A stretch of DNA of 64,000 nt from Candidatus Zixiibacteriota bacterium (GTDB lineage Bacteria; Zixibacteria; MSB-5A5; GN15; PGXB01). The DNA is taken from assembly GCA_026397505.1 (NCBI GenBank), contig JAPLUR010000052.1, forward strand, positions 1 through 64,000, given 5' to 3'. Numbering within the stretch: position 1 is the first letter of the stretch; each line of letters opens with the position of its first letter. The position numbers and the translations under genes were made by a program. The notes below the pieces were generated by a model. That model was given only the letters and a program-made list of their open reading frames with translations. It was not told the DNA's origin and ran no database searches. Shown here in pieces: positions 21,540-31,446 of the stretch.

Positions 21540-22283
21540 TTATCCGATATTGAGCGAGGGAAACAACTCGAGAAGATAATTGGCCAGGTATTGAAGGATA
21601 TTGAAGAAAATCAGTATGCCTATAAGCATCAGCAGTCCGCCGGAGATAATTTCGATGGCGCGGAAGTGCCGCTTAATGAAGCCGAAAAATCCAATCAGGA
21701 AATTGAAGAGTAAAGCGGTCAAGATAAACGGAATGCCCAGTCCGGCCGAATAGAAAGTCAGCAGGATTATCCCCTGCCCCACCGTGCCCTGATTGGCCGC
21801 CAGAGTCAGGATGGAACCGAGAATAGGACCAATGCAGGGAGTCCAGCCGAAGGCAAATGCCATACCGATGAGCACCGAACCGGCAACGCCGAACTTCCTC
21901 TGGCCGGTATGTATTCTCTTTTCATAATTAAGCGCTTTAATTCTAACCAGACCGGAGACATGCAGACCGAGGAGAAAAATTACGACGCCGGCGACTTTGT
22001 TGAAAATGCCGATATTCTGGAAAAGCCATTTGCCGATAAACGATGCCGAGGCGCCCATAGAAATAAAAATCAAAGAAAAGCCGAGAACGAAGAAAATTGT
22101 GTTTATTGCCACCCGATAAAGATGACGTGAAGCTTTTTCTTTATCGGTCAATTCCTCAAGAGAAACACCCGATATAAAGGAGATGTATCCCGGGATAAGA
22201 GGAAGCACGCAGGGAGAAACAAATGAGAGCCCCCCCGCCAATAAAGCGCCGAGATAGCTTACCGATGCCGATGTTTCAAACAT
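21540..22283 (-). CDS. ccdA: CcdA/DsbD-like thiol-disulfide transmembrane electron carrier
   Basis: A 247-residue membrane protein with about 6 helices. It starts with GALLAGGLSFVSPCVLPLIPGYISF, in which the conserved Cys lies in SPCVLPL (about 25), and the second conserved Cys lies in AFGWTPCIGPILGS (about 148). The two move reducing equivalents from cytosolic thioredoxin across the inner membrane for cytochrome c maturation or periplasmic thiol reduction. No dedicated periplasmic thioredoxin or cytochrome c synthase gene is adjacent, but a thioredoxin gene lies at 25148-25474 and a CxxCH lipoprotein at 17980-18531. Confidence 0.92.
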   Translation of the reverse strand: MFETSASVSYLGALLAGGLSFVSPCVLPLIPGYISFISGVSLEELTDKEKASRHLYRVAINTIFFVLGFSLIFISMGASASFIGKWLFQNIGIFNKVAGVVIFLLGLHVSGLVRIKALNYEKRIHTGQRKFGVAGSVLIGMAFAFGWTPCIGPILGSILTLAANQGTVGQGIILLTFYSAGLGIPFILTALLFNFLIGFFGFIKRHFRAIEIISGGLLMLIGILIFFNILQYLANYLLELFPSLNIG

Positions 22284-22344: not shown

Positions 22345-23583
22345 CTATTTTTTATCTGCCAACATGGTCGCCAATTCGTCCTTGACCATGCGATATATCT
22401 CTTCGGCATTGATCTTATCGATTATTTGTTTGGCCAGCTTTTCCGCCAGAAGCTCCACCATGTAATTGCTGAAATGTCGTAATTCGTCATCATCAGCGGC
22501 CGCCATGGACTCCGAATGGGATTTCTTGGCTGGTGTCGGCGTCTCTGCCGAAACCGCAGCTTGCAACGGAGCAGATTCGGAAGTGGAATCGATTTTCTCC
22601 ATTTCCTTTTTAAATTCCGCGATGAATTCATCCACGCCACCGGCGATAATTTCGGGGGTTTCAGGAGCGTTTCCAGGCGTTTCCGACAATGCCTTGGCAG
22701 GCGCCGGAGGATTTATCGGCTCAATGAACTCATGATTGACCGACAAATGAAGACTGCCGGTATCCGATGGCAATTGCAGACCCGCTGCTTCTTTCTGCAT
22801 TTCCTTGATAAACCAGTTATAATCATGCGGAGAATGCTTGCTTTCCATCTCGTGAATTTTATCAGGCTCGATCAAGCCGTACTGGTCAGAGGCGATCTCA
22901 ATTTTGGAGGAAGCTGAAAGCTTACTCGCTTCCGTCTCAGGCGGCGAAGTAGAACTCCCCTCTTCTCGAATCATGAGCGATTCCACTTTCTGGCTGTCAC
23001 TCTTTCCGGCCGTTTCATCAAATTCGGGATGATGAATAGCAAAACCGTTCCCTTTCTCGGAAGGAGTGGGCATCTTGATCTTACCGGTTACCCATTTCTT
23101 GTCGACAACTTCAGATGATTCAACATCAATATTGTCTATTCCCAGAGCGGCATCCAGAAACTCATCATCGACCGTTCCCATGGCAAAGGGGTCAGCCGTT
23201 GTTATCTGCTCGACCGCGGGTTTCTCGATCCCACCGCCGACAAAGAGCCGGACCTTTTCTATAAACTCTCTGGGGTCAAAGGGACGGGTCAGAATGACCT
23301 CATCCGGATACGGGAGAGATCGCCCCTCCGGGTCGGCTATCAGAAGAAGCGGTATGGATGAAGTAGCCGGGTTTTCCTCAATCGAATCATATAAATACTT
23401 GTCCGCGGGATCCTTGAGATCGGCCCCTACAATCAGCATATTTGGCTGAGAGGTGATAATAAGCTCTTTAGCCTTTTCAGTTGATGAAGCGCTGATGACA
23501 TCATAGCCATTCTGATGGAGAAGTGATTCGGCTATTGCTCTAATAGCGTCTGATTTTTCAGCCAGGAGGATTTTTTTTGGCAT
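22345..23583 (-). CDS. Receiver-domain protein with long low-complexity linker
   Basis: A 412-residue protein. Residues 1-115 resemble a response-regulator receiver: KKILLAEKSD at strand 1, putative phospho-acceptor Asp55 (IVGADLKDP) and LTRPFDPREF in place of the usual KPF. The acidic pair is reduced to one Glu and the conserved Lys is Arg, so phosphorylation may be impaired. Residues about 125-350 are a linker rich in Glu, Ser and Pro with no fold I recognise, and the last 50 residues form a helix (HFSNYMVELLAEKLAKQII). It has no DNA-binding output domain. The gene follows the rhomboid gene with no gap. Confidence 0.65.
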   Translation of the reverse strand: MPKKILLAEKSDAIRAIAESLLHQNGYDVISASSTEKAKELIITSQPNMLIVGADLKDPADKYLYDSIEENPATSSIPLLLIADPEGRSLPYPDEVILTRPFDPREFIEKVRLFVGGGIEKPAVEQITTADPFAMGTVDDEFLDAALGIDNIDVESSEVVDKKWVTGKIKMPTPSEKGNGFAIHHPEFDETAGKSDSQKVESLMIREEGSSTSPPETEASKLSASSKIEIASDQYGLIEPDKIHEMESKHSPHDYNWFIKEMQKEAAGLQLPSDTGSLHLSVNHEFIEPINPPAPAKALSETPGNAPETPEIIAGGVDEFIAEFKKEMEKIDSTSESAPLQAAVSAETPTPAKKSHSESMAAADDDELRHFSNYMVELLAEKLAKQIIDKINAEEIYRMVKDELATMLADKK

Positions 23584-24420
23584 TTATCTGTCAACCTTGG
23601 TGCTGTTGTCGTTTCTGGATAAAATATGGCTGGCTTCCTCAAGAAATTTCCGGTCTTCCCGGGAAATGTTCTCAAGGCCTACCTCATTTATCTTATCCAG
23701 TATAGCATCAACCTTTCTCATTATTTCTTCGGCTTTTTGGCGGTTTTTCTCCAGTTTATTTGTCTTTCTTTTGAGCCTCAACGACTTCAGCCGGTGTCCC
23801 AGGCTGAAAAGTCGCCAATCAAGCTTAATATAGGCCAATCCCATAACAGCCCCGCCCAGATGTGCTAAATGAGCCACATTGGGGCCGGAGGCGACAAAGT
23901 TCAGCAACGCAAACAGCGGAATAGCCCAGCGGACGCGCATCGGAAAGATGAAGAATATCAACAGATATCGCTCGGGGAACATCAGCCAATAGGCTACCAG
24001 AACGCCATAAATCGCTCCGGAAGCACCAATTATCGGATTATTAAGACCATAGTTGAAGGCCAGCGAAAAAAGGGCACCGCCCAATCCGCAAAGGAGATAA
24101 TAACGGAGAAAGGACTTTGAACCCCAGGAGTATTCAATTTCCGTCCCAAACATCCAGAGAGTCAGCAGGTTGAAGAGAATATGAAAGATCCCGGCATGCA
24201 AAAAGATATAAGTTAGGGGCTGAAAAATATATTTCGGGAACTCCCGCAGGAAAAGAGCCGGGGTCAGGCCAAAAGTCAATTCCAGAGGGTAGGTTGACAG
24301 TTTCTGAATGACAAAAAAGCCGGCAGTGAAAATCAGAAGATATTTGATAACCGGGCTAACGGAACCGGGGCCAATTCGGAATCCGCTCGGCTCACCCGCA
24401 TAATTGTCGTACCGCTTCAT
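23584..24420 (-). CDS. Rhomboid-family intramembrane serine protease
   Basis: A 278-residue membrane protease with 6 helices. The catalytic Ser lies in GASGAIYGVLVAY (about 130) and the catalytic His in AHLAHLGGAVMGLAY (about 183); the oxyanion-side histidine region HAGIFHILFNLLTLW (about 76) is intact. The C-terminal tail (about 200-278) is Lys/Glu-rich, cytoplasmic and probably helical (RKTNKLEKNRQKAEEIMRK). Rhomboids cleave membrane proteins within or beside the bilayer; the substrate is unknown. It is followed immediately by the receiver-like gene. Confidence 0.9.
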   Translation of the reverse strand: MKRYDNYAGEPSGFRIGPGSVSPVIKYLLIFTAGFFVIQKLSTYPLELTFGLTPALFLREFPKYIFQPLTYIFLHAGIFHILFNLLTLWMFGTEIEYSWGSKSFLRYYLLCGLGGALFSLAFNYGLNNPIIGASGAIYGVLVAYWLMFPERYLLIFFIFPMRVRWAIPLFALLNFVASGPNVAHLAHLGGAVMGLAYIKLDWRLFSLGHRLKSLRLKRKTNKLEKNRQKAEEIMRKVDAILDKINEVGLENISREDRKFLEEASHILSRNDNSTKVDR

Positions 24421-24507: not shown

Positions 24508-24690
24508 TTAAGGTAGTTCCGGTTCGGAGGAAGCAGGATCTTCTTCTTTATTCTTGCTCTTTTTACCCAACTGGGTATCGCAGGCGGAACTCATTCATGT
24601 CCGGATACCTAATTTGGGAAAAACAATAACCGTCAACAGGAACCAGAGTAAGAGAAATACTGAAATCGAGACAATATCATAGATGTCCAT
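24508..24690 (-). CDS. Candidate small membrane selenoprotein (in-frame UGA)
   Basis: Read through one TGA (24595-24597), this frame gives 60 residues. An N-terminal membrane helix (about 6-24, SISVFLLLWFLLTVIVF) is followed by PKLGIRT, the TGA at codon 32, then MSSAC with Cys37, and a charged tail (KKSKNKEEDPASSEPELP) ending in TAA. If the TGA is selenocysteine, the U-x4-C pair sits just outside the helix. A SECIS-like hairpin follows at 24564-24577. The ATG is 11 nt after the CoA-binding gene stop with an AGGA before it, so it is the third gene after thioredoxin. Without recoding it would be a 31-residue helix. I recall no named family and did not search. Confidence 0.5.
24564..24577 (-). 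promoter_or_regulatory. SECIS-like hairpin after the in-frame TGA
   Basis: On the minus-strand mRNA UACCC-AGUU-GGGUA forms a 5-bp stem with a 4-nt loop whose second base is G. The loop begins 23 nt after the UGA at 24595-24597. Bacterial SECIS elements are known to have a small apical loop with G at position 1 or 2, placed about 16-37 nt after the UGA, so this fits. The lower stem is weak. Confidence 0.45.
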
Positions 24691-24701: not shown

Positions 24702-25145
24702 CTATAGTTGAATCAAACGAACATGCTCCTTATAAATGCAACGATCCATTACCATTATAAGCCCGGCTTCCTCACCCCTCATGAAAGCGTCGGTGGAGAC
24801 AACCGACTCCTGCAACCAGACGGCGGCGGCGCCGATGGCAATCGCTTCTTCTGTGATAGACAAAGCCGCGTCTGGGCTACGAAAGACATCGACAATATCC
24901 ACCGGAACCGGTATCGATTTGAGGTCGTGATAGGCCTTCTCGCCGAGCACTTCTGCCTCTTTCGGGTTTACGGGAATGATATGATAGCCATGTTCCTGAA
25001 GGTAGCGGGCCACGCCATGGCTGGCTCTTTCCGGGTTGGAGGATAAGCCGACCACGGCGACAGTTTTTGCCTTCTTTAAAAGCTCACGCAGCTTATCGGG
25101 CGAGGGGTTCTGCCATCCCTCCCCACTATTATTATATTCGGACAT
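24702..25145 (-). CDS. CoA-binding domain protein (YccU-like)
   Basis: A 147-residue Rossmann-fold protein with VAVVGLSSNPERASHGVARYL (about 29-49) and the conserved VNPKEAEVLGEKAYHDLKSIP segment (about 58-78), followed by DIVDVFRSPD and a conserved Cys in MDRCIYKEH near the C terminus. The fold matches the succinyl-CoA synthetase CoA-binding domain; the family role is not established. It starts 2 nt after the thioredoxin stop and is followed 11 nt later by the candidate selenoprotein, so all three form one operon and point to thiol redox chemistry. Confidence 0.9.
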   Translation of the reverse strand: MSEYNNSGEGWQNPSPDKLRELLKKAKTVAVVGLSSNPERASHGVARYLQEHGYHIIPVNPKEAEVLGEKAYHDLKSIPVPVDIVDVFRSPDAALSITEEAIAIGAAAVWLQESVVSTDAFMRGEEAGLIMVMDRCIYKEHVRLIQL

Positions 25146-25147
25146 AT

Positions 25148-25474
25148 TTACCCGATGACTTTGGCCAGGCGATTAACAAGTTGAGCTTTCGGGATTGCCC
25201 CAATAACCTGATCGACAAGTTCGCCGTTTTTGAAAAGGAGCAAGGTTGGAATCGACATAATACCGTATTGGGAAGCAACCTTGGCATTGGCATCAACATC
25301 AATTTTGACTACTTTCAGCTTACCGTCATATTCAGTCGCTACCTCTTCCAAAATAGGGGCAATCATCTTGCAGGGACCGCACCAGGTAGCCCAGAAATCT
25401 ACCAGTACCGGTTTATCCGATTTGATTACTTCCTGATCAAAAACGCTGTCCGTTATCGCAACTGGCTTGCTCAT
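25148..25474 (-). CDS. trxA: Thioredoxin
   Basis: A 108-residue classical thioredoxin, with active site WCGPCK at residues 32-37 ([13 protein letters not shown]), the cis-Pro in SIPTLLLF, and the usual glycine before it. It reduces protein disulfides and can feed CcdA. It heads an operon with a CoA-binding protein and the candidate membrane selenoprotein. A promoter candidate lies at 25498-25527. No thioredoxin reductase is in the window. Confidence 0.96.
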
Positions 25475-25527: not shown

Positions 25528-27183
25528 TCAAATTGTTCCCATCATGCCCCGGCGAACCAGGGACACGGGAATGGATCCATATGATAATAAACGATTATGA
25601 AATTCTTTTAAAGAAACCTGTGGGGATTGCCGGCGAAAATCAGCCGCCAGTTTCTCTATTTCGATTTTTCCTATCAGATAACTCATCGGCTGGGTGGGAC
25701 TTTGCGAATAGCGGCGCACTTCCGCCTCGGCATTGGGTCGCTCCAGATGAGCAATATCGATCAACATTGCCACCGCGTCATAGAAACTGAATCGGCCCGC
25801 ATGCAGCCGGACATCGATCACCACCCGACAGGCGCGCCAGAGCTGGTCTTTCAATTGTATCAATTCGGTCCTGCGACCGGAATAATACCCTTTCTGTCTC
25901 ATCAAATCTTCACAATACAGAGCCCATCCCTCAACAAAAACAGGTGTCCCATAAATCCGGCGTACTTTGGATTTATTACGATTGGCCAAACATAATTGAA
26001 GGTGATGACCCGGATAACCCTCGTGCAAGGTCCTTACCTCTATCGCCGCCCGGCTATGGCCCAAAAGCTGCTCTTTCGCCCTCTCCGGTGAAGTACCGCT
26101 GTCAATCGGCGTAACCCAGAAAAAGCCGCGCTGCGGTTCTTCAAATGGAGCCGGCGCCATATAGGCGGCGTATGGAAGAGTTGCCCGTTCCGAAACAGGG
26201 GTTTCCATTATTTCCAGCATTTCATTTCTGGGCAGATCAATAAAATCCTGCTTTATTACAAATTCCCTTGTTCGATTCATCTCGAGGCGATAGGCTTCAA
26301 GCAATTCCGATGCCGCCGGCGTGTCCGATTTTATCTCCTCAAGCAGTTCAAACAGATCCCGGCCGGGGGCAATCTCGGAGGCAATTGATTTCATCTGCTT
26401 CAGGGTCAGATCGATATATTCAATTCCGATCGCCTCCAGTTCTCTCGGACTATAAGGGAGCAAATGATACTCTTTAAGCAGAAGGCCAAAGTACTCCTCC
26501 CCACAGGCAAAAGATCCCGAGGCTTTCCGGGATAATTCCTCGTTGAGAAACTTTAGATAATCGTCAAATGCTTTTGAAGCCAGAGTCGCGGCGGCCAAAA
26601 TATCATTCTTGAGAGGCTGTAACTCCATGGCCGTCCGGGTCATTAACTGTGTAAAAAACCTCTGCCCCGAATGGGCCATTTCCACAGCCATGTCGCGCCA
26701 GAGCTCGGGAATCGTCGCATTCATGCGCAGGTTGCTCTTGCCTTCGGCCAGATAACGCGGAATTTCCTTTAAACGCGAAATAAGAAAGCGATATCTTTCT
26801 TCCCTGGATAGAAAATCGCGGATGAGAAATATCAGGCAGGCAAAAATGGCATTATTGGGATAAAAGGAGGGGTCGTTACGAAGCCGGTTGAACATTCGCT
26901 CTGAGGCAATATCTTTTCGAATATTGGCGGCCAGCATTTCCAAGTCAAGTTTGCATTCTGCAGATAATTCGTTCGCCTTCTTGAATTCCCCCAGCAGTGA
27001 TAGCCAGTTTTTCTCCTTTCTCAGATAATCATTTCGCGAAATCTCATCGACATGATCCAATTGGCCATCATATTGATGTATTCCCGCAAAGGTGGCCGAA
27101 ATGGGCGAGAACTTCCAGGTTTCTTCCAGTATTTCATCGACCAATGCTTCCCATGCGAGGTCGCGGTCGCTAGAGTGCGTCAT
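25528..27183 (-). CDS. DUF885-family metallopeptidase-like protein
   Basis: A 551-residue protein of the DUF885 family, with no signal peptide, so probably cytosolic. The zinc motif HEGYPGHH lies at about residue 386 (RTLHEGYPGHHLQLCL), followed by VEGWALYCEDLM (about 417), whose Glu is the likely third ligand. The N-terminal portion is helical. Some family members act on small peptides, but the substrate here is unknown. Its start overlaps the stop of the activase-like gene by 4 nt (ATGA), so the two are co-translated. Confidence 0.85.
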   Translation of the reverse strand: MTHSSDRDLAWEALVDEILEETWKFSPISATFAGIHQYDGQLDHVDEISRNDYLRKEKNWLSLLGEFKKANELSAECKLDLEMLAANIRKDIASERMFNRLRNDPSFYPNNAIFACLIFLIRDFLSREERYRFLISRLKEIPRYLAEGKSNLRMNATIPELWRDMAVEMAHSGQRFFTQLMTRTAMELQPLKNDILAAATLASKAFDDYLKFLNEELSRKASGSFACGEEYFGLLLKEYHLLPYSPRELEAIGIEYIDLTLKQMKSIASEIAPGRDLFELLEEIKSDTPAASELLEAYRLEMNRTREFVIKQDFIDLPRNEMLEIMETPVSERATLPYAAYMAPAPFEEPQRGFFWVTPIDSGTSPERAKEQLLGHSRAAIEVRTLHEGYPGHHLQLCLANRNKSKVRRIYGTPVFVEGWALYCEDLMRQKGYYSGRRTELIQLKDQLWRACRVVIDVRLHAGRFSFYDAVAMLIDIAHLERPNAEAEVRRYSQSPTQPMSYLIGKIEIEKLAADFRRQSPQVSLKEFHNRLLSYGSIPVSLVRRGMMGTI

Positions 27184-30100
27184 TTCCGCTTCTCTCCGAG
27201 TCTCTCTTCTTGGCGGGCATGCATATTCCTGACCTGATCGACAAAGGCCTCCAAACGTGTTTCCTCGCCGGTATCCTGCAGACCTTCATAACTGATATTA
27301 AGCCAGGGGACTTCCCCCAGATCGTGGGCAACGCGGCGCGAAAGAGAAGTCACTATTGTACCCGGCATGCAGTTAAACGGCATGCAGTTGATGATACCCG
27401 AGGCACCATGATGCACAAAATTGATCGCTTTGCCGATGGAAAGAACTGCCTCTCCCCTGACATCCACCGGAAGATACGGAGCGGCCAACCGCACGACTTC
27501 GCTGATGGGCAATTCATGGTCTATGGGGAAGTGCCTCGTAAAAGCCTTTTCGATATGATATTCATCCTTATTCTGCAGATAGGTCTGAAGAACGGCTTTC
27601 AGGATGCCCTTCCATGATTTCTTATAAAGGGAATCGAGTTTGAAAGTGTAGGTCGTATAGTTGACCCATTCGGCAAAAGTAGCCAACTGGACTTCAATCC
27701 CCAGCGCTTCCACTTTGGCTATCAGATGATTATTTGAAAAGCGATTGTTCCGAAGATATATTTCCCCGACCAGCCCGATCCTCGGTTTCCCTTCGGGATT
27801 CCGTTTTATCCGACTGAATTCCCGAGCGGCCTCGTCGCCCAATGCTGTTAAGTCGCCGCCCTCGATAACTGTCTCTTCCATCTTTTTCAGATATTTCCGA
27901 TATGTTTTCTCGGCGGCACCTTCTTCAATTTCATACGGTCTGGTCTTAAGCAAAATTTTAATGAGGCAATCGACAAAGACAATTCCACGCCAGCCCAGCC
28001 GTCGAAATGGTGTTTTCTCCAAACCAAAGTCGGCGTAGGAAGTCCTGGAATTGGGGGAGTATATCGGTATATTTCGATATCCCAGTTCATCCAATATGAT
28101 GCGATGAAACTGGCTGTACAATCCGAAACGACAGGGACCATCGGCTCCCGGCATGAAGAACACCGAACGTTCCGGGTCAAAATCGGGTGAATTTATTTTT
28201 CGCAACATATCTCCTGTGGTCACCACGCAGGGGAAACATTCCTTGCCGGATGTGAATCTTTTTCCATAAGTGAGACTTTCCTCATCCGGTTCCTCCATAA
28301 CTTCGGCTTTAATGCCGCATCGCACAAAAGCGGCTCGCACTGGATAGGCATGATCACACATGTTGGGAATGAAAATGGTTTTATCGGCCGGTGAAAAATT
28401 GCGGTCGGCGGGAGTGAACTCGTAAAGAGGTGGCGCATATTTATAGAATCTCAATGAATCAAGGAATGCCTCCACGCGCGTAATGGCGCCGGCATCGGCC
28501 GAATGCTCATCCAGTTCCAACTGGAGATAAGGTTTGCCGGACATCTGGCGGCGGAAAAAATGAGTTATGAAGGAATCGGGACCGCAGCCGAAGGCGCTCA
28601 AATATACCGCATAGAGATTAGAGTGCTTGCGGATGAAGTTGGCCGCGGAGAGGATTTTCCGGCCATACAACCAGTACATTTCCGAAAGTTCTTCGGTATC
28701 CAGTTTCATGGGAAGAAAATCGATATGAATCGTTTTCAATCCCATTTTGCGGATTTTGTCCGGTATTTCCAAAGAAAGATGCCGGTCAAAGCCGTTATAT
28801 GGTCGACTGACAATAACGATGCATTTTTCGTCACGTTCAAGACTTTCGAGTATTTTCTTGCCTTCCGCCTCCATGTTTCTGCGGAATTGGTCGTAAGCCG
28901 ATATGCCGTTGGCCAGCGCTTTTTTGACTTCACTCTCAGGCAAACCCATTACTTTAACTAATTGCGCTAATTCTATGAGCATTTTACTATTATCGCGCTG
29001 CAATTTTAAGGGATGGCCGATAAATTTGATCCCTTCGGCGGCAAAGTCAAACTTGGAGGCAACGGTATTGCCTATCGATTGAACATAGGGACAGATATAG
29101 CTGCCATAATCATCATAGTTGTCCTCGGTAAAACTTATTATGCCGGGCAAAAAGATATAGTCGACTTTCTTCTTTATCAGATTGTCCATGTGGCCGAAAG
29201 CCATTTTGACCGGGAAACAGGTCTCGGCGGCGAATTTCTCGAGAGCCGCATCGACTATGGCATGATTAGACAGGTCGCTGTTTACCACTTCAAAGCCAAG
29301 CGTCTCGAAAAAGGCTTTCCAGTAGGGATAGTACTCAAAGAAGTGGAGTATTCGGGGAATCCCAACTCTCCCCCGGCTACTCTCTTTCCTCTCAGCATTA
29401 ATATATCTCTTCATCAGCAACTGCTGACGGAGATTAAAGTAGTCGGGAAGAAGGGAGCCTTTTTCGGCCCGGTTGACATCATATTTTTCGCAGCGACTGC
29501 CGTAATACAGCGGCTTTTCCCCTTCAACATTGACCGTCCTAATCTCACACATATTGGAGCAATCCTGGCAGGTGAAAGTATCCAGAGTATATTTCTTTTT
29601 GGAGAGGTCAAATCCTTTGAATTTGGAGCCGTTTCCCCGATCGAATTCCATGGCCAGAATGGCGGCTCCGATGGCGCCGGTGACATCATGATGCGGCGGA
29701 ACCGTGACTTTCCTTCCGGTGAGCTTCTCGAAGGCGGCCACCACTCCCTTATTCCAGGCTACGCCTCCCTGGAATAAAATGTTATCGCCGATCTTTCTAT
29801 CGCCGACCACCTTGGTCAGATAATTGGCGGCAATGGAATAGGCCAATCCGGCAATGAGATCATTTGTCCCGGCGCCGGCCCGCTGGTGGCTCACCAAATC
29901 CGATTCCATGAAAACGGTGCAGCGCTCACCGCAACCGACCGGGCACTCGGCGGAAAGGGCACGGTCGCCGAATTCCCGCTCAATATTTATGTCCAGCTTT
30001 TCGGCCTGCTCTTGAAGGAAAGAACCGGTTCCGGCGGCACAGGCTTTGTTCATCTCGAAATCAATGACAGTCTGATTGTGGAGGGAAATATATTTGGAAT

Positions 30101-31376
30101 CCTGTCCCCCGATTTCAAAAATGGTATCAACCGTCGGGTCGAAATTTATGGCCGCCGTGGCCTGGGCCGTTATTTCATTCTTGACAATATCGGCCCCAAC
30201 AAAATCCCCGGTCAGATAACGCCCCGAACCGGTCGTGCCGACCCCGATGACTCTGACTCTCCCAGCCACTTCAGCGCCTATCTCCGCCAGACCGCGTCTT
30301 ACCGCTTCAATCGGGCGGCCTTCGGTCATCAAATAGCGGCGAGCGACAACATTCTTGTTCCGGTCTATCAGCACCAGGTTGGTGGAAAGAGAGCCGACAT
30401 CGATTCCAAGGTAAACATCCAGATGATCCAGCGTCCCCCGGTATTGCCTGGCCGTCACAGCATAGAACTTGGAATCGGGAAAATCAAAAGTCAGCCTTTC
30501 CCGTCCGGTGCGGGGCACACCTCGGAATTGGAGATAGCCGGATATCTTTTCAGTATCAATGCTGACAGGCGCGACTCCTGTGGCCTTGGTCGCCAGAAGA
30601 GCGGCCCCAATAGCGCCCATGACATTGTGATACTTCGGAATGATCAATTCCTCCCGGCCGATCTCGAGAATTTCGGCAAAAGCCCGAATCATTCCGGGAT
30701 TGGAGGCTACGCCGCCCTCAAAGGCGACTGGAGACAGAAATTTCTTCCCCCGGGCAATAGCGCTTTTGAAGTTGCGGGCCACTGCAAAGCAGAGCCCGGC
30801 CACGATATCGTAATCGGGGGTGGCAATTTGCTGGAGGTGGATCATGTCGGACTTGGCAAAAACCGAGCACCTTCCCGCAATACGAGGGGGATTCTGGGAT
30901 TTAAGGGCCAATTGCCCAAATTCCTCATCAATTGATATCTTCAGGCGTCCCGCCTGCTGATCAAGGAAGGAACCGGTTCCTGCGGCGCACAGATTATTCA
31001 TGCTAAAATCGACCACTACCTGTCGTTCGGGATCCAATTGAATAAATTTTGAATCCTCTCCCCCCATTTCGATTATTGTACGCACCTGAGGCACTAGATA
31101 AGCATTAGAGGCGGCAATAGCGGCAATTTCCCCAAAGAAACTGCCCCCAAGAATACTGACCCCGGTCCGTCCGCCTATTCCGGAAAAACCAAGCCTGACC
31201 GGCTGAAGAATCCAATCACCAAACTCGCTATCAAGCAGGTCCTTAAGTGTCTGGTAAGGCCGGCCATGGAACCGACGATAGGCGGTCTTGGCAATCGCCC
31301 CTTTATTATCCAGGACAGCGACCTTGACTGAAACCGACCCGATGTCAACCCCGATTGAATATTCGGCGGACTCCAT
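27180..31376 (-). CDS. Tandem acyl-CoA dehydratase activase-like ATPase fused to DUF2229
   Basis: A 1398-residue fusion. Two BcrAD/BadFG ATPase domains follow each other: GVDIGSVSVKVAV with GGEDSKFI and CAAGTGSFLDQQ (about 8-270), and GIDVGSLSTNLVL with GGQDSKYI and CAAGTGSFLQEQ (about 325-585). The Cys of each CAAGTGSF would bind the shared [4Fe-4S] cluster in known activases. The rest (about 640-1398) carries DUF2229 and an HgdB-like region with conserved Cys (TCFPVKMAFGH, CFPCVVTTGD, GPCRFGLYSQFHR). Such proteins use ATP hydrolysis to drive electrons to a partner; the acceptor here is unknown. I start at ATG 31376, with AGGTG 8 nt before it; an upstream TTG adds 17 unlikely residues. Confidence 0.85.
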   Translation of the reverse strand: MESAEYSIGVDIGSVSVKVAVLDNKGAIAKTAYRRFHGRPYQTLKDLLDSEFGDWILQPVRLGFSGIGGRTGVSILGGSFFGEIAAIAASNAYLVPQVRTIIEMGGEDSKFIQLDPERQVVVDFSMNNLCAAGTGSFLDQQAGRLKISIDEEFGQLALKSQNPPRIAGRCSVFAKSDMIHLQQIATPDYDIVAGLCFAVARNFKSAIARGKKFLSPVAFEGGVASNPGMIRAFAEILEIGREELIIPKYHNVMGAIGAALLATKATGVAPVSIDTEKISGYLQFRGVPRTGRERLTFDFPDSKFYAVTARQYRGTLDHLDVYLGIDVGSLSTNLVLIDRNKNVVARRYLMTEGRPIEAVRRGLAEIGAEVAGRVRVIGVGTTGSGRYLTGDFVGADIVKNEITAQATAAINFDPTVDTIFEIGGQDSKYISLHNQTVIDFEMNKACAAGTGSFLQEQAEKLDINIEREFGDRALSAECPVGCGERCTVFMESDLVSHQRAGAGTNDLIAGLAYSIAANYLTKVVGDRKIGDNILFQGGVAWNKGVVAAFEKLTGRKVTVPPHHDVTGAIGAAILAMEFDRGNGSKFKGFDLSKKKYTLDTFTCQDCSNMCEIRTVNVEGEKPLYYGSRCEKYDVNRAEKGSLLPDYFNLRQQLLMKRYINAERKESSRGRVGIPRILHFFEYYPYWKAFFETLGFEVVNSDLSNHAIVDAALEKFAAETCFPVKMAFGHMDNLIKKKVDYIFLPGIISFTEDNYDDYGSYICPYVQSIGNTVASKFDFAAEGIKFIGHPLKLQRDNSKMLIELAQLVKVMGLPESEVKKALANGISAYDQFRRNMEAEGKKILESLERDEKCIVIVSRPYNGFDRHLSLEIPDKIRKMGLKTIHIDFLPMKLDTEELSEMYWLYGRKILSAANFIRKHSNLYAVYLSAFGCGPDSFITHFFRRQMSGKPYLQLELDEHSADAGAITRVEAFLDSLRFYKYAPPLYEFTPADRNFSPADKTIFIPNMCDHAYPVRAAFVRCGIKAEVMEEPDEESLTYGKRFTSGKECFPCVVTTGDMLRKINSPDFDPERSVFFMPGADGPCRFGLYSQFHRIILDELGYRNIPIYSPNSRTSYADFGLEKTPFRRLGWRGIVFVDCLIKILLKTRPYEIEEGAAEKTYRKYLKKMEETVIEGGDLTALGDEAAREFSRIKRNPEGKPRIGLVGEIYLRNNRFSNNHLIAKVEALGIEVQLATFAEWVNYTTYTFKLDSLYKKSWKGILKAVLQTYLQNKDEYHIEKAFTRHFPIDHELPISEVVRLAAPYLPVDVRGEAVLSIGKAINFVHHGASGIINCMPFNCMPGTIVTSLSRRVAHDLGEVPWLNISYEGLQDTGEETRLEAFVDQVRNMHARQEERLGEKRK

Positions 31377-31417
31377 TTCGCTTTCACCTTTTTCAGGAAG
31401 ATTGTTTTTTGTGCCTG

Positions 31418-31446
31418 ATAATAACAATTTTTTGCCTTGTCTGCAA
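31418..31446 (-). promoter_or_regulatory. Candidate promoter of the activase-DUF885 operon
   Basis: On the minus strand TTGCAG (31441-31446), 17-nt spacer, TATTAT (31418-31423). The leader would be about 35 nt and contains the Shine-Dalgarno. Confidence 0.4.

Follow-up and report, generated by a model that had tools for sequence, protein, structure and literature searches.

A short membrane selenoprotein of Candidatus Zixiibacteriota and its probable coupling to thioredoxin

Introduction

SELENOK and SELENOS are short single-pass proteins with an N-terminal helix, a disordered cytosolic C-terminal tail and one selenocysteine (Sec); for SELENOS, electrons have been proposed to come from the Trx/TR system, and a selenylsulfide that involves a Cys of the tail has been found (PMC10650576). 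Among bacterial proteins, the thioredoxin-fold selenoproteins (Trx, Prx-like, DsbA/DsbG-like and TlpA-UGC) combine a redox Sec and a link to thioredoxin with a bacterial SECIS element, and TsoB is a rhodanese/DsbD fusion-like selenoprotein with the motif UxxxxU (PMC13188914 Table 1). Why Sec is retained is an open question according to a 2026 review (PMC13188914).

Here we analyze a locus in a 64,000-nucleotide stretch of DNA from a Candidatus Zixiibacteriota bacterium (the window), where the initial annotation had proposed a thioredoxin operon with a gene for a small membrane selenoprotein. The Sec machinery of the host, 100 homologues with TGA, a covarying SECIS element and co-occurrence with selA uphold this core claim, and we consider the gene at 24690-24508 of the minus strand, as judged from comparative sequence analysis, almost certainly to encode a genuine selenoprotein. 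Its product would share with the thioredoxin-fold selenoproteins a redox Sec, a thioredoxin link and a bacterial SECIS, but it lacks the thioredoxin fold and is built as a helix and a disordered tail, it carries P-x2-G-[VI]-x-T-U rather than UxxC or CxxU, and Cys homologues were not found for it.

Results

Re-reading of the minus strand returned the frame that had been described, with a helix, PKLGIRT, an in-frame TGA, MSSAC and a charged tail between ATG 24690 and a TAA. In the translation of the window it reads MDIYDIVSISVFLLLWFLLTVIVFPKLGIRT, TGA (24597-24595), MSSACDTQLGKKSKNKEEDPASSEPELP, TAA. The gene and its parts are as follows.

24690-24508, minus: gene for the 60-residue single-pass membrane selenoprotein, ATG 24690 to the terminal TAA
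24598-24690, minus: 5' part of the frame, residues 1-31, a single transmembrane (TM) helix (residues 3-23) followed by FPKLGIRT
24595-24597, minus: in-frame TGA, read as Sec32 (TGA in 100 of 101 homologues, CGA in one, Cys in none)
24580-24582, minus: codon of Cys37, at +5 from Sec, a partner thiol that is frequent but not essential
24564-24577, minus: bacterial SECIS hairpin UACCC[AGUU]GGGUA, loop 23-26 nt past the UGA
24508-24594, minus: 3' part of the frame, residues 33-60, a charged disordered tail, and the stop TAA

The genome from which the window comes contains selA, selB, selC (tRNA-Sec) and selD, the four genes that the initial annotation had named for checking. Its tRNA-Sec scored 71.9 bits, above the cut-off of 47, and was called tRNA-SeC(tca) by ARAGORN, and selA and selB share one contig (C144), with the N-terminal part of SelB at the contig end. 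The selD gene (L049, G000:C122:8398-9324) has an in-frame TGA of its own and is a second probable Sec gene of this genome; an in-frame TGA, which may be either an error or a case of recoding, also lies within the selA match of another genome (G046:C64:9741-11075).

To collect homologues, we searched 132 genomes of the phylum by tBLASTn and then with a profile (A1). The profile matched 64 of them in a single copy each, the match in G096 being spurious; 63 genes were extracted, and three more were recovered from the trx-rhomboid gap of genomes that had given no profile match, for a total of 66 phylum homologues. The Sec column is TGA in all 66, and Cys, TAA and TAG do not occur in it. Terminal stops are mixed, both in the selenoprotein genes themselves (27 TAA, 21 TGA and 15 TAG in the 63 tabulated) and at the same loci in trxA (27 TAA, 19 TGA and 12 TAG) and the rhomboid gene (23 TAA, 18 TAG and 9 TGA). 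Over 386 genomes, profile A1 matched 28 of the 254 outside the phylum, and 27 of these 28 matches have TGA at the shared column together with a SECIS-like hairpin, the residues before the TGA being mostly [FL]P-x2-[LFM]-G-[VI]-x-[TG]. A wider profile (A5) added three matches outside the phylum and four within the phylum of G349. Overall, the TGA is shared by 100 members, of which 66 belong to the phylum and 34 do not, and homologues do align across it, as the initial annotation had required; one relative has CGA and none has Cys. The CGA (Arg) copy, in G376 (L193), is the sole non-Sec relative; it meets a stop seven codons on, lacks the hairpin, lies in a selA-positive host and looks like a decayed or decaying gene. 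One metagenome bin labeled Calditrichaeota CLD4 (QQUK01000287.1, L055) falls in the order of the window and has Zixibacteria-type synteny; its label is probably wrong.

The 31 out-of-phylum matches are spread over 28 GTDB families. Among all members, many hosts are metagenome bins, and at least two phyla (Zixiibacteriota and the phylum of G349) are certain. Every one of these 31 hosts is selA-positive, compared with 115 of the 254 genomes overall (P = 1.7e-12), and the gene is thus present in 31 of the 115 sampled selA-positive genomes outside the phylum (27%). Co-occurrence with selA is informative only there, because 121 of the 132 genomes within the phylum are selA-positive.

Cys homologues of bacterial selenoproteins are usual but not defining. 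The initial annotation had expected them and had listed their absence as a refutation; we found no Cys-for-Sec relative among the 386 sampled genomes or in 72,556 plasmids. Given the conserved UGA, the SECIS element and the link to selA, the missing Cys forms point to a Sec-only family and not to a false positive. In six genomes without a homologue (G016, G019, G026, G028, G066 and G071), trxA or the CoA-binding gene is still there along with the rhomboid gene, which indicates that in these lineages the gene was lost rather than converted to a Cys form.

Bacterial SECIS elements place the loop about 16-37 nt past the UGA, with a G at loop position 1 or 2. The hairpin of the window, which had been placed 23 nt past the TGA, is present, but its stem starts at 18 nt and it is the loop that starts at 23 nt; this AGUU loop at +23 fits the rule. 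Of 200 shuffles of this stretch, 197 fold less well than the native sequence (z -2.5). Applied to the members as at least 5 bp, a G at one of the two leading loop positions and a distance of 16-40 nt from the UGA, the rule was satisfied by 92 of 100; of dinucleotide shuffles 23% pass it, and of ordinary stops 43 of 127. In the remaining eight members, the strict rule finds no hairpin of 5 bp or more. An Rfam scan of the region gave no match to a SECIS family. In family f4 (33 sequences, stem at a fixed distance from the UGA), 92.2% of stem cells are paired, double-sided changes number 35 against 10.9 in shuffled alignments (0 of 500 shuffles as high), and the covariation score is 0.44 against 0.05-0.18 for slid partners. 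The stem of family f1 (12 sequences) likewise has 14 double-sided changes against 5.0 when shuffled, again with 0 of 500 as high.

These data bear on the reading in which the TGA is an ordinary stop that ends a 31-residue membrane peptide, the run behind it being noise or an independent ORF of 28 codons with its own start (TGA-ATG). An open run of 28 codons is not rare, which is why the initial annotation had left room for chance; frame +1 past the TGA is often open too, and Met follows the TGA directly in 18 of 63 members. Against this, TGA is never replaced by TAA or TAG in the 66 phylum homologues while neighboring stops mix freely, the SECIS covaries at fixed spacing, the gene occurs exclusively in selA-positive genomes outside the phylum, and thioredoxin fusions run across the TGA. 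Moreover, codon +5 after the TGA specifies Cys in 41 of 63 members through both synonymous codons (TGT 22, TGC 19), which points to selection at the protein level after the UGA. A codon-position substitution test on the tail gave the highest value at position 3, but control frames and the 3' sequence were similarly biased, and the test carries no weight in this argument. UGA conservation, the covarying stem and hairpins in 92 of 100 members place the signal far beyond chance, and we reject both the ordinary stop and the TGA-ATG restart, which the codon, SECIS and selA evidence leaves hardly credible.

In the predicted structure, the protein is one helix (residues 3-23), with pLDDT of 90-93 over the first 20 residues and mostly below 50 in the tail, in a model based on a six-sequence alignment and with low pTM. 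W16 and P25 are invariant in 30 phylum members (alignment A1), and P25, G28 and Sec are invariant across phyla (alignment A5); the family motif is P-x2-G-[VI]-x-T-U. Lys/Arg residues average 0.1 over the six N-terminal positions and 1.8 immediately past the helix and so, by the positive-inside rule, the helix is probably oriented N-out/C-in with a cytosolic tail; of the two locations offered by the initial annotation for the thiol pair, cytosol or periplasm, this favors the former. At least 17 residues follow Sec in every tabulated member, and the window tail, in which Sec is residue 32 of 60, has one Gly and mixed charge. The U-x4-C pair that had been proposed, as part of a still hypothetical membrane thiol relay, is common, as the Cys codon at +5 attests, but it does not define the family: Cys is wholly absent from 13 of the 66 members in the phylum and from several elsewhere, and others carry a Cys further along the tail. 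The members without any Cys exclude an obligatory internal selenenylsulfide.

The neighboring genes in the window that concern us here are listed below.

25148-25474, minus: trxA, encoding a thioredoxin with WCGPC, on the upstream side of the cluster (PF00085, E = 4e-36)
24702-25145, minus: CoA-binding protein (CoA_binding_2), between trxA and the selenoprotein gene (PF13380, E = 6e-41)
23584-24420, minus: rhomboid protease, next gene downstream (PF01694, E = 1e-31)
21540-22283, minus: CcdA/DsbD-type membrane thiol-transport protein, further downstream in the same cluster (PF02683, E = 5e-11; synteny)

The upstream thioredoxin and CoA-binding genes and their tight spacing were correctly recognized in the initial annotation: trxA is separated by 2 nt from the CoA-binding gene, which is followed after 11 nt by the selenoprotein ATG, and the rhomboid gene starts 87 nt downstream. 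Within the order of the window, trxA lies upstream and the rhomboid gene downstream in 56 of 56 members, and a conserved CcdA or DsbD gene follows at about 2.4 kb; the CoA-binding gene is kept in most members of family f1 and in f2 and is missing in f4. The thioredoxin-rhomboid adjacency is retained in four members of the order that lack the selenoprotein gene (G026, G028, G066 and G071), and the CoA-binding gene and rhomboid in two others (G016 and G019). Because the neighborhood persists without the gene, synteny inside the order is weak evidence by itself. Two further genes of the window were noted: a 412-residue protein whose N-terminus is receiver-like and which Pfam does not match (22345-23583, minus) is conserved between rhomboid and CcdA/DsbD order-wide, and a 1415-residue BadF/BadG-type ATPase with DUF2229, similar to 2-hydroxyacyl-CoA dehydratase activators (27180-31427, minus), is often conserved upstream of the trxA cluster.

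Outside the order, the link to thioredoxin takes a different form. In-frame TM-Sec-Trx fusions through the TGA occur in five genomes of another phylum (G349, G207, G386, G387 and G388), the fused thioredoxin being a separate domain with its own CxxC; the fusion loci are L203/L204 (G349), L205 (G387), L207 (G207), L208 (G386) and L209 (G388), and the phylum is small. In two other lineages a thioredoxin gene adjoins the selenoprotein gene, trxA upstream in G251 and trx2 downstream in G366, while G199 and G340 have TlpA/Trx-like genes on the upstream side. The gene adjoins a member of OsmC, a family of hydroperoxide reductases, in G113, G115 and G235, and in G188 (L194) it has a rubrerythrin gene on either side and a catalase gene at a distance of about 2.5 kb. 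At several of the loci outside the phylum, no redox gene is a neighbor. In G088 (L152) and G122 (L153), the gene ends what reads from sequence as a fatty-acid oxidation operon, shortly after an acyl-CoA dehydrogenase gene. We conclude that the fusions and the adjacency outside the order strongly suggest thioredoxin as the redox partner.

Discussion

A thioredoxin-coupled redox role of the selenoprotein is probable, and for the window gene we regard the selenoprotein assignment and the thioredoxin coupling as likely to hold jointly. The N-out/C-in helix would bring the selenol of Sec to the cytosolic face of the membrane, some eight residues beyond the helix, where it could attack an oxidized substrate at or in the membrane, such as a hydroperoxide (organic or lipid) or a disulfide in a protein. 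Peroxide may be the main substrate, a suggestion that we make tentatively and for which the OsmC, rubrerythrin and catalase neighbors speak. The selenenic acid or selenenylsulfide formed in this way would then be reduced by thioredoxin, with the Cys at +5 or one further down the tail acting as the resolving thiol where present, and with thioredoxin resolving directly in Cys-free members. These two modes of resolution resemble 2-Cys versus 1-Cys peroxiredoxins.

Other roles can be imagined for a Sec at this position. The selenoprotein could hand thioredoxin electrons to CcdA/DsbD, or to another membrane partner, for extracytosolic reduction, and its thioredoxin linkage and the conserved CcdA or DsbD gene downstream would suit such a relay; however, CcdA/DsbD does not adjoin the gene outside the order, a single helix cannot alone carry electrons across, and no relay is needed because thioredoxin normally reduces CcdA/DsbD directly, so that we consider this unlikely. 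That the selenol is instead a soft-metal or selenium/sulfur ligand, for metal sensing, detoxification or selenium storage, and not a turnover catalyst, would agree with the several Cys-free members, in which Sec alone suffices, and with the YgaP-like TM genes and DUF6132 or FmdB-like ribbons found near a few members. The recognizable neighbors and fusions are mostly thioredoxin- or peroxide-related, however, and the family has no conserved second metal ligand, which makes a ligand role improbable. The adjacent rhomboid protease raises the further idea that the helix is its substrate or partner and that cleavage frees the Sec tail. The invariable position of the rhomboid gene in the order and the suitability of the presumed N-out/C-in topology for rhomboid substrates speak for it, but rhomboid is not an adjoining gene outside the order and is retained where the selenoprotein gene has been lost; we view this idea as very doubtful and prefer the thioredoxin-reduced selenol.

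To our knowledge, almost every selenoprotein described so far has Cys relatives that are more common, and discovery methods based on Cys/Sec pairs depend on them. The authors of deep-Sep note that families lacking Cys homologues may escape their own method (PMC12013277). The present family, tiny, Sec-only and carried by 31 of the 115 sampled selA-positive genomes outside the phylum, shows that such families exist and were overlooked. It also offers a simple protein for asking what selenium alone can do, and the natural thioredoxin fusion makes the partner directly testable.

Searches of NCBIfam (30 + 34 members) and Pfam (30 members) returned no significant family and none over the curated cut-off, and the 119 prokaryotic families tabulated in the 2026 review include no such protein or motif (PMC13188914); membership in a known family was therefore rejected. 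The family is uncatalogued in these three sources, and an earlier description in Deng 2026 or mSystems 2025 e01417-24 is possible. On balance, we lean toward an uncatalogued, Bacteria-wide, Sec-only family in which Sec is irreplaceable by Cys: a minimal counterpart of SELENOK/SELENOS with a thioredoxin-reduced selenol at the membrane surface, which sometimes forms a single-chain TM-Sec-Trx enzyme. If this is true, the family, found in about a quarter of the sampled Sec-decoding genomes outside the phylum, may help to explain why these lineages retain Sec decoding.

With TsoB, the family shares a probably membrane-linked thiol transfer and the five-residue spacing of two reactive residues, but TsoB is by its description a larger multi-domain protein with two Sec, and NCBIfam, which includes a TsoB model, gave no match in the window family. 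Compared with SELENOK/SELENOS, Sec lies here just past the helix (32 of 60) and not second or third from the C-terminus, the window tail lacks their glycine-rich, positively charged segment, the SECIS is bacterial and no Cys homologues were found. Because its Sec position and tail composition fall outside the SELENOK/SELENOS definition, we do not file the window family there; the likeness, for which we claim no homology, lies in the single N-terminal TM helix followed by a disordered C-terminal tail.
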